A stretch of DNA of 39,849 nucleotides, taken from NCBI GenBank assembly GCA_902806275.1, contig CADCVY010000107.1, positions 1 through 39,849 on the forward strand, given 5' to 3'. Of the stretch, positions 17,946 through 29,916 are shown one piece after another. Made by a program: the position numbers and the translations under genes. Below the pieces are notes generated by a model, which saw nothing but the letters and a program-made list of their open reading frames with translations, was not told the DNA's origin and did not search any database. How positions within the stretch are numbered: position 1 is the first letter of the stretch; each line of letters opens with the position of its first letter. This DNA comes from an uncultured Sphingomonas sp. Lineage in GTDB: Bacteria > Pseudomonadota > Alphaproteobacteria > Sphingomonadales > Sphingomonadaceae.

Positions 17946-18049
17946 GGTTCATCCTTCTGCTGGCAACTTGCCGTCACAGAGGGATGCGCCCGTGCGAGTG
18001 CGCCCGGGCGGCCCACGCCCCCGCGGCTGAACCCGGCCGGGGAAACGGA

Positions 18050-18185
18050 CGACGGACCAAGGCAAGTGTCTGACTCGATTGGGTTGGTGAAAACCCAGTC
18101 CTACAGTTGCGGGCACAGCGCCGGCTTCGCACCGGCTTCCTTTTTCAACCGGCGGCCGTGACCGCCGGACCCTGGTCCTGGAGCA
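18050..18185 (-). promoter_or_regulatory. Cobalamin (B12) riboswitch
   Basis: Reverse strand contains AAAGGAAGCCGGTGCGAAGCCGGCGCTGTGCCCGCAACTGTAG and B12-box GTCAGACACTTGCC, in the 5' leader of the btuB-like gene. Boundaries approximate. Confidence 0.93.
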
Positions 18186-18295
18186 TCGCTAGGCGCGGTG
18201 CCGAAACCTTGTCAATCACAGGCCCGTTCGCTAGGGCCGCGCGACACTTGCTGCCGCTGGTCGGAAACCAGCTGCTAACCCAAGGAAATCATGAC

Positions 18296-23632: not shown

Positions 23633-25825
23633 CTATTGGCTGGCCGCCGGCGCGACCGGCTTGGCAGCGCTGCCGAACGTGCGCTTGATCGTCAGTCCGA
23701 AGTTGCGGTGGCGATTGCGCTCCCGGAGCTCGTCGATCTCATCTTCGACGAGTGCCCGATTGGGGAAGTAACGCAGACGCCGGCGGTTGCCGCTGGTTCC
23801 GAGCGCGTTGTCGAGGTCGAGCGTGATGGAGGTGCGCGCGTCGGGCCGGTACTCGACGAAAGCGGTGCCGTACGGCCGGCCATTGTAGTTGATGTCGAAC
23901 TCATCCGTGCGGAAGAAGGTGAAGCGGTCGCGGTCGCTGACGGCGAAACCATAGGACCACGGGCCGGCGTCGCGGCGGACGTCGAAGCGCCATTCCCAAT
24001 CGGGGAAGTAGTCGCTGAAGTTCCGCTGCTCGCCGCTGATCGGGTCCTCCACCCGGGTCCGCCGAAGCGTGCCGTCGAACTTGGCGCGAAAGCCCGGCCA
24101 CAGGGCGCTTAGCGGCGCATCGACCGTTAGCGTGGCGAACATATGCTTGCCGGTCCCGAGGTTGCCCGGGGCGTCGAAGAAGCGCTCGCTTTCCGCGTCG
24201 AAGATAAGAACGCGATCCTGGAGCTTGCTGATGTGATCGTAGCCCAGGTCCAGCTTGACCAGACCGTCCCCGAGAATCGGCCGATCGCCGGTCAGCCGGA
24301 ATTCCCACGCGCGCTGGGGCTGCAGGTTCTCGTTGCCGGCATTGATGCGGTCGGTGGACAGCTCGGCAACCGTGACGAAATCGTAGAAGTCTAACTGCGC
24401 GACGGTTCGCTTGACTGAGAACTGCGTGTGCCAACCGCCGCCGGGCTTCCAGTCCACGGTAAGGCTGGGCTTGTAGAATGCCAGCTTGCGGTTTGCCTGA
24501 GCATCGCCGCTGACCTTCAGCCGCGACAATTCATAACGCATGCCGGCGTCGACGCGAAGGTTGGGGTTGAAGCTCCTGCCGACATTGATGAAAGCCTCGC
24601 CGCGCTTCTCCTTGACGTTGACTTTGGCGACCGGGAGATCGATCTCTGTCCTCGAACCATCGGGATTGACGACCAGCAGTTCCGTCGAGTTGTCGAGCGT
24701 GTTGAGCACGGCTTCGCCGCCCACTTCCCATGACAGACCCCACAGGCTCTGGCGGGTCCAGGAGAGCCGCCCGATCGTTTCGTTCAACTGGGCGAGCTGC
24801 GTCTGCTCGAAACCGCCCACCTGCGTCGCCTCGTCTTCAAGCAGGCCGTTACGGACGACCTGGGCGTCGAAATTGTCGCGCTTGCGACGGGTCGCGAGCC
24901 CGAGCAGCTTGATCGCCCCTCCGGCCAGCGGCCGCGTGACGTCGCCCCCAATTTCGAACGTCGGGCGATCGTAGTCCTGCAGCAAAGAGTCGTCGCGGTC
25001 CGGTTCGCCGGTCACCGACACCCGGTTCCTCTGCGTCAGGTCGAACTGGCCCGGCGACCAGCGCGCATTGAAGTGCATCGATTGGTCTGGAGCGCGCTCC
25101 AGCCCCCAGCTGCCCGCAAGGTAGGGGTCGAAATCGCTGTACGAATTGAACTTGCGCCGGAACTCCAGGAGGTCGCCCGTGCCCGGATCGGTCAGCGTAT
25201 CGGTGCCTTCCTCGAGGTTGACGACATTGTTGAAGCCGCCCGACAGGTTGACGGTCGCAGCTCCGCGCCGGATGAGCACCGATGCAGAGCCGTCCGGAAC
25301 CACTTTGCCCGTGTAGAGCCGTCGGAGCGAACCCGTCGCGTTGCCGTCAAGCCCGCCTTCCGCGGATAGCAAGATGTTGAGCACTTGGCTGCGGCTGGCA
25401 TAATCTGCCCCATAGAGGCTACCGGGACCGACCTGCACGCTCGTCACCCGGCTAGCCGGGATCCGCTGCAGCGTTGCTTCGAGCGATTCCGATTTTGAGC
25501 TCGGGCGCGCCCCGTTGAAGACGACGTTGCCGGCCGCGGCAGCAAAGCCGCGGACGTCCTGATCGCCCAGATCGAGGCTGAACCCGGGGACACGCCGCGC
25601 GATGTCGAGCGCGGTGCGGGGCGCATATTGGGCGAAGAAGGCGGCGTCGTAGCTGGTGGGCCCGCTCGTTCGCGCGACCGGCACGTCCGTTGCAGGCTGA
25701 TCTCCGGCCACAGCCGCGGACGGTTGTTCGCCGGGCGCAGTCTGGGCGAGGGCTGCATTGCCGACGGCGAGCGCCACCGTTCCGACCGTCGAAAGCGAGA
25801 AAGCCCGCACTGCGTATCCCCTCAT
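23633..25825 (-). CDS. TonB-dependent receptor of unknown ligand
   Basis: 730 aa, signal peptide, plug domain (ALDIARRVPGFSLDLGDQDVRGFAAAAGNVVFNGARPSSKSESLEATLQRIPASRVTSVQVGPGSLYGADYASRSQVLNILL), beta-barrel. Confidence 0.85.
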   Translation of the reverse strand: MRGYAVRAFSLSTVGTVALAVGNAALAQTAPGEQPSAAVAGDQPATDVPVARTSGPTSYDAAFFAQYAPRTALDIARRVPGFSLDLGDQDVRGFAAAAGNVVFNGARPSSKSESLEATLQRIPASRVTSVQVGPGSLYGADYASRSQVLNILLSAEGGLDGNATGSLRRLYTGKVVPDGSASVLIRRGAATVNLSGGFNNVVNLEEGTDTLTDPGTGDLLEFRRKFNSYSDFDPYLAGSWGLERAPDQSMHFNARWSPGQFDLTQRNRVSVTGEPDRDDSLLQDYDRPTFEIGGDVTRPLAGGAIKLLGLATRRKRDNFDAQVVRNGLLEDEATQVGGFEQTQLAQLNETIGRLSWTRQSLWGLSWEVGGEAVLNTLDNSTELLVVNPDGSRTEIDLPVAKVNVKEKRGEAFINVGRSFNPNLRVDAGMRYELSRLKVSGDAQANRKLAFYKPSLTVDWKPGGGWHTQFSVKRTVAQLDFYDFVTVAELSTDRINAGNENLQPQRAWEFRLTGDRPILGDGLVKLDLGYDHISKLQDRVLIFDAESERFFDAPGNLGTGKHMFATLTVDAPLSALWPGFRAKFDGTLRRTRVEDPISGEQRNFSDYFPDWEWRFDVRRDAGPWSYGFAVSDRDRFTFFRTDEFDINYNGRPYGTAFVEYRPDARTSITLDLDNALGTSGNRRRLRYFPNRALVEDEIDELRERNRHRNFGLTIKRTFGSAAKPVAPAASQ

Positions 25826-25938: not shown

Positions 25939-26814
25939 TCAGTGCCGGCGCCCGAAGATCTTGCGCTCGACGAGGTCGCCGACCGACGGCTGCCCTCCGG
26001 CTTCGCTTTGCACCGCGCGCACGAACTCGGGCGTGATATCGAGCGCCTTGAGCTCTACAAGCTTCTGGACCGGCAGGTTGCGGTAACCGAGCCGCTCGAA
26101 ACCGGCGATGTAATCCGCCGTGATATTCATCACGCGCATCTGCACCAGGTCGTCGGGGTCCATGTTGCCGTGACCGCCACGGACGAAGCCGCCGATGTAC
26201 TGCGGGGTGATGTTCAGTGCCTTGAACTGCACCAACGTGTCGATGGAGGCCGGCCGGTATCCGACCTGGGCGAGTCCGCGGATGTACGAGCCGTCGACGC
26301 CGAGCGCGGTCAGCGCCATCAGGTCGTCGACCGTCGGCGTCGGGTACCGCGCCGCGGCAACGGCTTCGATCAGCTCGCCCCGGGCATTGATCGCCATAAG
26401 CCCGAACGCCTGATCCCGGGTTGGCCGTCCGATGCCGCGGCTGGCCAGGAGCTGGGTGAAGCGCGCGTCGGGCGAAAAGCGGCAATTGCCGCTGGCGTAA
26501 GCGTTCCCGCCCTGACCGGAGCAATCCAGGCGTCCGGCTTCTCGGACCAGGGCGAAGCGGATCGGGTGCGTGCCGGCCGCCCGGAAGCTCGCAGCGTCGA
26601 GGCCCACCAGGTGCGGCGGGTGGAAGCTGGTCGACCAATTGTTGTCGCCCCGGTGCCGGTCGCGATCGAGGTCGCGGAACTCGGCGCGGATCTCGCCGTC
26701 ACGCGACGGCTCTAGCGTAAAGCCGATCCACTCGACACCCTGCGCGGTGCACGCCGAAGCGATCGACAGCGATGCGAGGAACAATGCGCAAAGGAATGCG
26801 AGACATTTGTTCAT
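25939..26814 (-). CDS. Secreted repeat protein sharing ~29-aa repeats with the upstream M56 peptidase
   Basis: ATG at 26814 (MNKCLAFLCALFLASLSIASA signal peptide); four or more tandem repeats such as SIDTLVQFKALNITPQYIGGFVRGGHGNM / DPDDLVQMRVMNITADYIAGFERLGYRNL. Confidence 0.85.
   Translation of the reverse strand: MNKCLAFLCALFLASLSIASACTAQGVEWIGFTLEPSRDGEIRAEFRDLDRDRHRGDNNWSTSFHPPHLVGLDAASFRAAGTHPIRFALVREAGRLDCSGQGGNAYASGNCRFSPDARFTQLLASRGIGRPTRDQAFGLMAINARGELIEAVAAARYPTPTVDDLMALTALGVDGSYIRGLAQVGYRPASIDTLVQFKALNITPQYIGGFVRGGHGNMDPDDLVQMRVMNITADYIAGFERLGYRNLPVQKLVELKALDITPEFVRAVQSEAGGQPSVGDLVERKIFGRRH
25951..26334 (-). repeat. Tandem ~29-residue protein repeats (about 87-bp period, diverged at DNA level)
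   Basis: Consensus xxDxLVxxKALxITPxYIxxFxxxGYxxx; units TVDDLMALTALGVDGSYIRGLAQVGYRPA, SIDTLVQ..., DPDDLVQ..., PVQKLVELKALDITPEFVRAVQ..., SVGDLVERK. Confidence 0.8.
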
Positions 26815-26921
26815 GGTCGGTCTCCTTCTGGAAGGCTGGGCAAGCGCCGCCCGTTCGCCCAAACACGGGCGTGCAAAGCTTCGGAAATGTGCAGGGCTGG
26901 CTAGCTTAGGAGCGGCTCAGG

Positions 26922-28787
26922 TCAGCCGCCGTCAGGGTCGAGGTCTGGATCGGGATCCCGTAGCGGATTCCAGCCGGGCGGCGGCACTCGCGGTGCGACC
27001 GGCAGCCGCATCGATTTGAGGTCCCGGGCGCTAACGCCCAGCGCCCGCATTTCGACCAGCTGGTCGGCATTGCGGAAGACGTAGCCCGACCCGCGCAGGC
27101 TGCGGACGTAATGCGGCCTGATGCCGACCGCGAACAGCTCGATGAAGTCGTCGAAGGAGGCGTTGACCCCGGCTGCGCGCATCTCGCGAACGTAGCTGCC
27201 GTTGATGCCGATCGCGCGCGCCTGGGTGAGATGTTCTTCGTCGATGTTGCGGAACCCGGCGGCGACCATGTCGCGCGCATATTCCGGCGTGACTCCGACG
27301 GCCTTCATGCCAGCGAAGTCCGATGCTTCGAGCCGCGCCAGCCGCGGCGCCGCGGCCCGCATGGCGGCGACATATTCGGGACTCACGCCGCTAGCCTTGA
27401 GGTGGATCGCACGGTCGATGTCGCGGTCGCGAAGGGCCTGTTGCGCGGCTTTGACCCCTTCGCCGGCGCGATGGACGCCTTCGCGAGCGCGGTCACTGCC
27501 TTCGCGGATGCGGTCGGCAGCTTCACGCACCCGCTCCGCCGCCTCGAGCCTGCGCTCCAGCGCATCTTCGCGCCTGCGCTCCGCGTCGCTCTCGTAAATC
27601 TCCCACCCGTCCACGGCGATCTCGCCCGCAGACGCGGCGGCCATCGCGGTCGTCACCGACGTGCTCACGCCATCGGCGATGATGCTTGCAAGGTCGGCCG
27701 GGGCATCGCTGCCGACGTAATAAGGCGCGGTCGGCCCGCTTCCATCTTCAGCTCCCGTCGCGTGCGCCGCTTTGAACATTGCTGAGCGACCACCCGGTGC
27801 AAGGGTCAAAGCGGCAAGCGGGGCGGCGATCAGCACCGCTCCAACCGCAACCCCCAAAGCGAACGGCCGCGCTGCCGGGCCGCGTGCCGAACCCCCGTCC
27901 AGCACGCGTGCAACCCGGCGTGCGAGCGAGTTCTTGGACGGAGCGACGCCATGGGCGCCAAGCAGCAGGCCGGGGCACTCATGGCGCGCCACGCCGACCA
28001 GCAACTGGGCATAGTCCGTGTCCGGGATGTCGGACCCGAGCACCGCGTCGTCGGCAGCTTCCTCGCGCAGCTGGTGCGCTTCGCGGGCAAGTACCCAGAC
28101 GAGCGGGTTGAACCAGAACAGCGCGGTCGCGACGCGCGCCAGCAGCAGCTTGATCCAGTCCATTCGGGCGATGTGGGCAAGCTCGTGGGCAATGATCGCT
28201 TCGGCTTCGCCCGACGCTTCGACGGCACGGCTGTTGAGCAGGATGACGGGGCGCATCAGCCCCCAGCTGATCGGCGAGGCGAGATCGTCGCTGGTCAGCA
28301 AAGCGGTGCCATGCTTGAAGCCCATGCGCCGCTGAGCGCGCGCGAGGGCGCTAAGCCAGTGAGCGTCGACCAGCACGTCAGCGCGGGCGCGAAGGGTTAT
28401 CAGCCGCGCCAACGCGAGAACGGTGAGGAAGAGCAGGAGCGCTGCCGGTAGCGCATAGGCCGCGCTGGCGAGGGCCGCCGAGCTGATGCTCAGGTTGGAT
28501 GGCGCCCCAGCGGATGCGGGGCCTGGCAACGCCGTCACGGCCACCTTTGTGCCCGCTGGCGCAGCAGCCGGATCGACATGCGGGGCCTCGCCGAGCAGGG
28601 CCGGGGCCTCGACCGTCCAGCTCGGGAGCACCAGCGGCGCCAACGCCAGCAGCACCAGCGCGACAAGCCCAATGTGCGCGACCCACGAACGTTCGGCTGC
28701 GGAGCGGCGCTTCATCATCGCCAGCAAGCCCAGCGTTGCCCCCGCGACGAGCATTGACTTGAGCGCGATCGCAACGAGCACCAGCAT
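26922..28787 (-). CDS. M56 (BlaR1-like) membrane metallopeptidase with C-terminal repeat domain
   Basis: ATG at 28787 overlapping the BlaI stop; N-terminal TM helices, ISWGLMRPVILLN, HELAHIARMDW zinc motif; coiled-coil then repeats such as EASDFAGMKAVGVTPEYARDMVAAGFRNI. Confidence 0.9.
   Translation of the reverse strand: MLVLVAIALKSMLVAGATLGLLAMMKRRSAAERSWVAHIGLVALVLLALAPLVLPSWTVEAPALLGEAPHVDPAAAPAGTKVAVTALPGPASAGAPSNLSISSAALASAAYALPAALLLFLTVLALARLITLRARADVLVDAHWLSALARAQRRMGFKHGTALLTSDDLASPISWGLMRPVILLNSRAVEASGEAEAIIAHELAHIARMDWIKLLLARVATALFWFNPLVWVLAREAHQLREEAADDAVLGSDIPDTDYAQLLVGVARHECPGLLLGAHGVAPSKNSLARRVARVLDGGSARGPAARPFALGVAVGAVLIAAPLAALTLAPGGRSAMFKAAHATGAEDGSGPTAPYYVGSDAPADLASIIADGVSTSVTTAMAAASAGEIAVDGWEIYESDAERRREDALERRLEAAERVREAADRIREGSDRAREGVHRAGEGVKAAQQALRDRDIDRAIHLKASGVSPEYVAAMRAAAPRLARLEASDFAGMKAVGVTPEYARDMVAAGFRNIDEEHLTQARAIGINGSYVREMRAAGVNASFDDFIELFAVGIRPHYVRSLRGSGYVFRNADQLVEMRALGVSARDLKSMRLPVAPRVPPPGWNPLRDPDPDLDPDGG
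27009..27428 (-). repeat. C-terminal ~28-29-residue repeats of the M56 peptidase
   Basis: KASGVSPEYVAAM / MKAVGVTPEYARDM / ARAIGINGSYVREM / FAVGIRPHYVRSL / MRALGVSARDLKSM at regular spacing. Confidence 0.8.
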
Positions 28788-29167
28788 CACTTGCCTCCCT
28801 TGGCCTCGCGGGCACGGGCGATCATCGCCTCGAGTTCGTCTAGCTCTTCGGCGTCGAGCTTGTTGGTCATTCCGAGCAGGGCCGATGCGGCGCTGGCCGG
28901 TGAGCCGTTGAAGAAGACCCGCACGATGTCGCTGAGCGCGGACCTCTTGGCAGCGGTGTCGGAAACAACCGGGCTGTAGAGGAACCCGCGCTGCGACTCG
29001 CTGCGCTGGACGAAGCCCTTGTCTTCGAGCCGCTTGAGCATGGCCCGCACGGCCGAACCGCTGAGCTGGTCGGGCAGGGCATCGCAAATCTCCGCGACCG
29101 CCAAGGCGCCGCGCTCATAAAGAATGTCCACGATCTGCCGTTCGCGGGGTGGAAGCTTGCTCAGCAT
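28787..29167 (-). CDS. BlaI/MecI/CopY family transcriptional regulator
   Basis: LPPRERQIVDILYERGALAVAEICDALPDQLSGSAVRAMLKRLEDKGFVQRSESQRGFLYSPVVS winged helix; directly precedes the M56 gene. Confidence 0.95.
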   Translation of the reverse strand: MLSKLPPRERQIVDILYERGALAVAEICDALPDQLSGSAVRAMLKRLEDKGFVQRSESQRGFLYSPVVSDTAAKRSALSDIVRVFFNGSPASAASALLGMTNKLDAEELDELEAMIARAREAKGGK

Positions 29168-29181
29168 TGCGACTCCTAAAG

Positions 29182-29213
29182 CACTACGTTTTAGTGTGTG
29201 CTACATTTGTAGC
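29182..29213. promoter_or_regulatory. Candidate BlaI-type operator (two adjacent dyads)
   Basis: CACTA-CGTTT-TAGTG (29182-29196) and GCTACA-TT-TGTAGC (29200-29213), just upstream of the blaI-like start; the second contains TACA-N2-TGTA. Confidence 0.7.

Positions 29214-29825: not shown

Positions 29826-29916
<91 letters not shown>

Follow-up and report, generated by a model that had tools for sequence, protein, structure and literature searches.

A BlaI-M56 protease locus of Sphingomonas in which the membrane protease and an adjacent secreted protein share a 29-residue helical repeat

An M56 membrane protease and the secreted protein encoded next to it in a BlaI-containing locus of an uncultured Sphingomonas sp. 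are clearly related: the protease C terminus and the secreted protein (working name SEC, i.e. the secreted protein encoded 3' of M56) have one homologous helical-hairpin repeat in common. The pairing of the two genes in two phyla, along with one natural fusion of their products, which is a single case and the strongest evidence, suggests that M56 and SEC may act jointly. To our knowledge, BlaR1-like proteases are known almost exclusively as beta-lactam sensors. For one M56 group lacking a penicillin-binding domain, our analysis supplies a predicted sensor fold and a secreted partner that is conserved, together with an exactly defined operator and a handful of envelope genes that are probably under control of the locus, such that signal, partner and output each become testable, with the operator offering a direct route to mapping the regulon in cultured Sphingomonas strains.

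Organization of the locus and the shared repeat

The minus-strand order in the window (the whole stretch of 39,849 nucleotides that was analysed, contig CADCVY010000107.1) is blaI, the M56 protease gene, sec and a receptor gene, with the following features.

29200..29213, minus strand: operator 1, GCTACAAATGTAGC, a perfect copy of the TACA-NN-TGTA inverted repeat of BlaI/MecI type (motif in relatives), with the pattern match at 29201-29212
29181..29196, minus strand: operator 2, degenerate, CACTAAAACGTAGTGC, at the position of the second operator of relatives
28790..29167 (stop codon 28787-28789), minus strand: BlaI-like winged-helix repressor, 126 aa (PF03965 Penicillinase_R, E 3.4e-23)
26925..28787, minus strand: M56 BlaR1-like membrane zinc protease, 621 aa (PF05569, E 1.4e-29, residues 4-293)
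28173..28187, minus strand: HELAH zinc-binding motif, residues 201-205, intact (invariant columns of a 21-row alignment)
27003..27422, minus strand: M56 C-terminal helical repeats, residues 456-595, about five 29-aa units (shuffle test, profile comparison, AlphaFold2)
25942..26814, minus strand: SEC, 291 aa, with signal peptide, beta domain and helical repeats (conserved in 19 same-genus loci)
26470..26727, minus strand: SEC N-terminal beta domain, residues 30-115 (AlphaFold2 strands)
25942..26427, minus strand: SEC helical repeats, residues 130-291, five full units and a capping helix (AlphaFold2, period 29)
23636..25825, minus strand: TonB-dependent-receptor-like outer-membrane barrel, the fourth gene of the cluster (PF14905, E 1.5e-12)

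The first-pass annotation had read the order of the BlaI-like regulator, M56 protein and secreted protein, and their positions, correctly; its identification of the locus and of a shared repeat also stands, whereas the beta domain of SEC, the receptor gene that follows sec, the paired operator and a SEC paralogue had escaped it. The blaI stop codon overlaps the M56 start codon (TGATG), and terminator-like sites were found neither in the M56-SEC gap nor in the SEC-receptor gap. The receptor gene product passes the threshold for the PF14905 barrel, with a Plug match (E 0.0031, 18.4 bits) that falls under the 23.9-bit cut-off. Elsewhere in the window are a tRNA gene about 660 bases upstream of blaI (29830-29916, minus strand; Rfam RF00005, 63.2 bits) and a cobalamin riboswitch (18044-18189, minus strand), which at 69 bits exceeds the Rfam gathering score.

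Several lines of evidence establish the relationship of the two repeat arrays. M56 and SEC match each other by BLASTP (E 3e-11), and Smith-Waterman comparison of M56 456-595 with SEC 129-288 scores 133, as against a mean of 29 (sd 5, maximum 66) for 2000 shuffles. Self-similarity at the 29-residue period is greater than in all 500 shuffles for both regions, with the M56 peak at 57. Profile-profile alignment of the M56 and SEC repeats by hhalign gives a probability of 99.95% (E 2.9e-38) over 138 columns, in register, whereas the SEC beta domain, used as a control in the same comparison, gives 0.6%; the possibility, raised with the original proposal, that the two repeat sets might be unrelated on profile alignment is thus not borne out. 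The unit counts proposed earlier, i.e. about five units of about 29 residues in M56 and at least four like units in SEC, agree with the periodicity and with AlphaFold2, which models about five helix-pair units in M56 (446-593, block pLDDT about 78-97) and, in SEC (130-288), five and a half, one per 29 residues. With native relatives in the input, SEC is modelled at a mean pLDDT of 90.3; M56 is modelled poorly outside its repeats (mean pLDDT 67.3 at full length).

In the SEC beta domain, C98 and C111 are invariant (alignment A1) and lie on adjacent AlphaFold2 strands (94-103 and 106-115), and they probably form a disulfide. The signal peptide was not adopted as being of lipoprotein type, the Cys by the cleavage site being absent in several relatives. 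Pfam, NCBIfam and PADLOC gave no named domain for SEC or its repeats above chance matches, no Pfam or NCBIfam model covers the repeat, and no solved structure resembled the fold of SEC in a Foldseek search at E <= 1e-3. Among PDB sequences, the SEC profile has a single low-E match, to PDB 8v2d (E 1.3e-7), which likewise has regular alpha-hairpin repeats but is a designed protein; we read this as resemblance among simple helical repeats, with no implication of evolutionary kinship. The open-access papers searched contained no account of these repeats, of SEC or of the gene order.

The protease, its repressor and the tandem operator

The M56 protein matches the PF05569 model over its full length, and its C-terminal repeats lie outside that model, which distinguishes it from Peptidase_M56 as defined by Pfam. 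In the 21-row alignment D246 and R294 are conserved and E242/E243 is the candidate third zinc ligand; hydrophobic segments with positive-inside loops, judged by hydropathy and loop charge, suggest that the C terminus lies outside the cytoplasm. The protein thus combines HExxH with a putative downstream acidic ligand and a BlaR1-like topology, the ligand and topology being read from alignment and hydropathy only. BlaR1 is its best PDB match by both sequence and fold, with weak scores and a Foldseek match that is not significant. With HELAH 201-205, D246 and R294 kept and the C terminus probably outside the cytoplasm, we infer a BlaI-cleaving switch.

The locus resembles the BlaI-BlaR1 and MecI-MecR1 systems of Staphylococcus aureus and Bacillus licheniformis (PMC9834060) in that a BlaI-family winged-helix repressor (PF03965) adjoins an M56 protease (PF05569), in overlapping genes here, the protease having HExxH and the membrane plan of BlaR1, and in that an operator of the TACA-NN-TGTA type precedes the repressor. 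It differs in having a 29-aa helical repeat array as its sensor region, and in that the genes which follow encode a secreted protein with repeats and a receptor in place of a beta-lactamase or PBP2a. The earlier claim that the M56 C terminus carries no penicillin-binding domain is in line with Pfam and NCBIfam scans, which detected no such (class D beta-lactamase-like) domain; the NCBIfam BlaR1 model matches residues 116-252 only, far under its cut-off. This domain defines BlaR1 beta-lactam sensors; it was looked for and is missing here, so the locus is not one of them. In S. aureus, BlaR1 cleaves BlaI directly, its extracellular sensor signalling through the membrane (PMC9834060).

The repressor is 65-87% identical to the copies in related loci. 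At each of the 20 loci where the start of blaI could be read, tandem GCTACAAATGTAGC-like inverted repeats precede the gene and a TTGCR- or TTGAC-like hexamer lies immediately upstream of the pair, and the TACA/TGTA inverted repeat before the repressor gene is a putative BlaI operator. Searches of 20 relatives with the 12-base operator core gave 50 matches, versus 3 for a reversed-pattern control. In five genomes (L179, L184, L190, L191 and L193) a further copy is found next to dapE, the gene opposite dapE being a second receptor gene in L179 (Pfam Plug) and L184 (similarity). Secreted proteins with DUF2807 (head GIN domain) also have copies upstream, at five sites in four genomes (L181, L182, L185, L186 and L187; four assigned by Pfam, L185 by synteny with L181), and these proteins are a possible conserved regulon member. 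One genome has a copy upstream of a PF00144 beta-lactamase-family protein, and for several lone sites no gene could be clearly assigned. For the genome of the window itself, where the motif statistics are pattern searches, no regulon was called from loose CTAC-N4-GTAG matches, which numbered 9 versus 36 for the control pattern. In one related genome (G025), the blaI-M56-receptor cluster itself is near an apparent dapE-side operator region (L189).

Conservation in Sphingomonadaceae and Acidobacteria

Our neighbourhood survey bears on the first-pass suggestion that the M56 and secreted proteins belong together, which required that their genes stay adjacent in relatives. A search (P0002) of 37 same-genus genomes matched 21, and sec lies directly 3' of M56 in 19 of these 21 genomes with a repeat-bearing M56; SEC also adjoins M56 in other Sphingomonadaceae and in Acidobacteria. 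BlaI was confirmed on the same contig for 18 of the 19 M56-sec loci, the remaining contig ending inside M56. In the other two genomes (G022 and G025), sec is missing and the receptor gene comes immediately after BlaI and a repeat-bearing M56, and thus SEC is not always required. Neither a repeat-bearing M56 ortholog nor sec was found in the other 16 same-genus genomes, such that the association of SEC with the repeat-bearing M56 (19/21 versus 0/16) has a Fisher p of 1.2e-8, uncorrected for phylogeny. A relative of the receptor gene follows in 15 of the 21 same-genus loci. The locus occurs on named contigs of Sphingomonas/Sphingomicrobium species and of Sphingobium nicotianae; a SEC search against plasmids gave no match.

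The BlaI-M56-SEC order recurs in Acidobacteria, on the named contigs L074, L075 and L076. A survey of 297 acidobacterial genomes matched 46 and yielded 12 further regions in which blaI, M56 and sec all occur (L199-L201, L203, L207, L217, L218, L222, L225, L226, L229 and L230), together with about sixteen SEC homologues without an M56 neighbour. One operator common to both phyla was rejected, the acidobacterial blaI genes being without the TACA/TGTA operator; several have tandem ACGAA-N-TTCGT-like repeats in its place, and TACGAA-N-TTCGTA-like inverted repeats were seen at L074, L075, L076, L227, L229 and L230.

In one acidobacterial genome (G586; region L204, P0005), a single open reading frame encodes an M56 domain (PF05569, E 8.1e-31), the last hydrophobic segment, a SEC beta domain (E 1.6e-13 with the SEC beta domain HMM) and about eight repeats, and no separate sec match was found in that genome. 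The fusion puts the SEC module where BlaR1 has its sensor; an M56 protein can therefore have the SEC module as its extracytoplasmic part.

Possible mechanism and the role of SEC

Taking the locus as a whole, we lean, by a narrow measure, toward a BlaI/BlaR1-like proteolytic switch with a helical-solenoid sensor, in which SEC is a docking co-sensor and outer-membrane receptors are the output. BlaI would repress the operon from the tandem TACA-NN-TGTA operator, which appears also at other envelope genes in relatives. M56 would be arranged in the membrane as BlaR1 is, the catalytic site facing the cytoplasm, and its extracytoplasmic sensor would be a short alpha-helical solenoid in place of the penicillin-binding domain. 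SEC, in its likeliest role, would dock repeat-to-repeat on the M56 solenoid and, once docked, report envelope state or a ligand, whereupon M56 would cleave BlaI and production of SEC and the outer-membrane receptor would rise. Because SEC is encoded in the operon that it would help control, it may also set the feedback gain. The roles first suggested for SEC, decoy, ligand or co-sensor, are all still candidates, with co-sensor the likeliest.

Once shared gene history is accounted for, M56 and SEC show weak co-evolution (partial correlation 0.24, Mantel p 0.04), and the mirror-tree signal was dropped, as too weak, from the evidence for M56-SEC binding. Since SEC homologues also exist without M56, beside ABC exporters or alone, and since G022 and G025 are without SEC, co-assembly is a step that we infer. 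Three rival readings were considered. In one of these, which we consider unlikely but worth serious attention, SEC and the M56 solenoid both bind one envelope ligand or surface, not each other, and SEC is an induced effector, i.e. a chaperone, scaffold or exporter accessory. Such a role would accommodate both the SEC homologues that are associated with operons for ABC exporters (HlyD adaptor, ATPase, MacB/FtsX permease), in the genus and in Acidobacteria, or that stand alone, and the two genomes that retain a repeat-bearing M56 without SEC; it sits less well, however, with the fusion, in which the SEC module belongs to the M56 protein itself, and with the tightness of the M56-SEC pairing within the genus.

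Operon-encoded feedback regulators of envelope sensors are known elsewhere, CpxP and RseB being precedents, and SEC lies within an operon that is expectedly BlaI-repressed and has a solenoid in common with M56. It might thus be a negative-feedback decoy, induced to occupy or titrate what the M56 solenoid senses and so to end signalling. We regard this as rather improbable: the sequence fixes no sign of the SEC effect, and the fused form would then be a permanently self-inhibited sensor, which is possible but less natural. The match to the designed protein shows that simple helical repeats can look alike, as would be expected if M56 and SEC had each separately recruited a generic alpha-hairpin and were neighbours by chance; but the retention of the pair in two phyla, the fusion, the near-complete co-occurrence and the in-register profile match make that reading highly implausible.

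We also advance, tentatively and with more doubt than conviction, a broader proposal: the BlaI-M56 switches of Sphingomonadaceae and Acidobacteria may be a signalling class of their own, where the envelope is read via homotypic packing of a common solenoid by a protease and a secreted protein, and the SEC module may be an interchangeable periplasmic sensor part for M56 switches and ABC exporters.

With respect to the latter, SEC paralogues with the beta domain and repeats adjoin the permeases of MacAB/FtsX-type ABC export operons here, in relatives and in Acidobacteria, at loci that differ in having neither M56 nor BlaI and, in relatives, an adjacent response regulator and probable kinase. The genome of the window encodes a second SEC on contig C70 (L006 11520-12575, minus strand), with IHGV-type repeats, after a MacB/FtsX-type permease. 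The same SEC type in G778 is downstream of genes for an HlyD-type adaptor, an ATPase and a permease, adjoined by the response regulator and probable kinase. Because contig C40 of the window's own genome ends with an adaptor and an ATPase, C40 and C70 may adjoin; by synteny with G778, the C70 paralogue probably ends an adaptor-ATPase-permease operon begun on C40. An acidobacterial SEC in L205 also adjoins a MacB/FtsX-type permease. Another acidobacterial SEC homologue without M56 (L232 5114-6214) has nearby a protein with, by eye, a zinc-finger-like anti-sigma N terminus.
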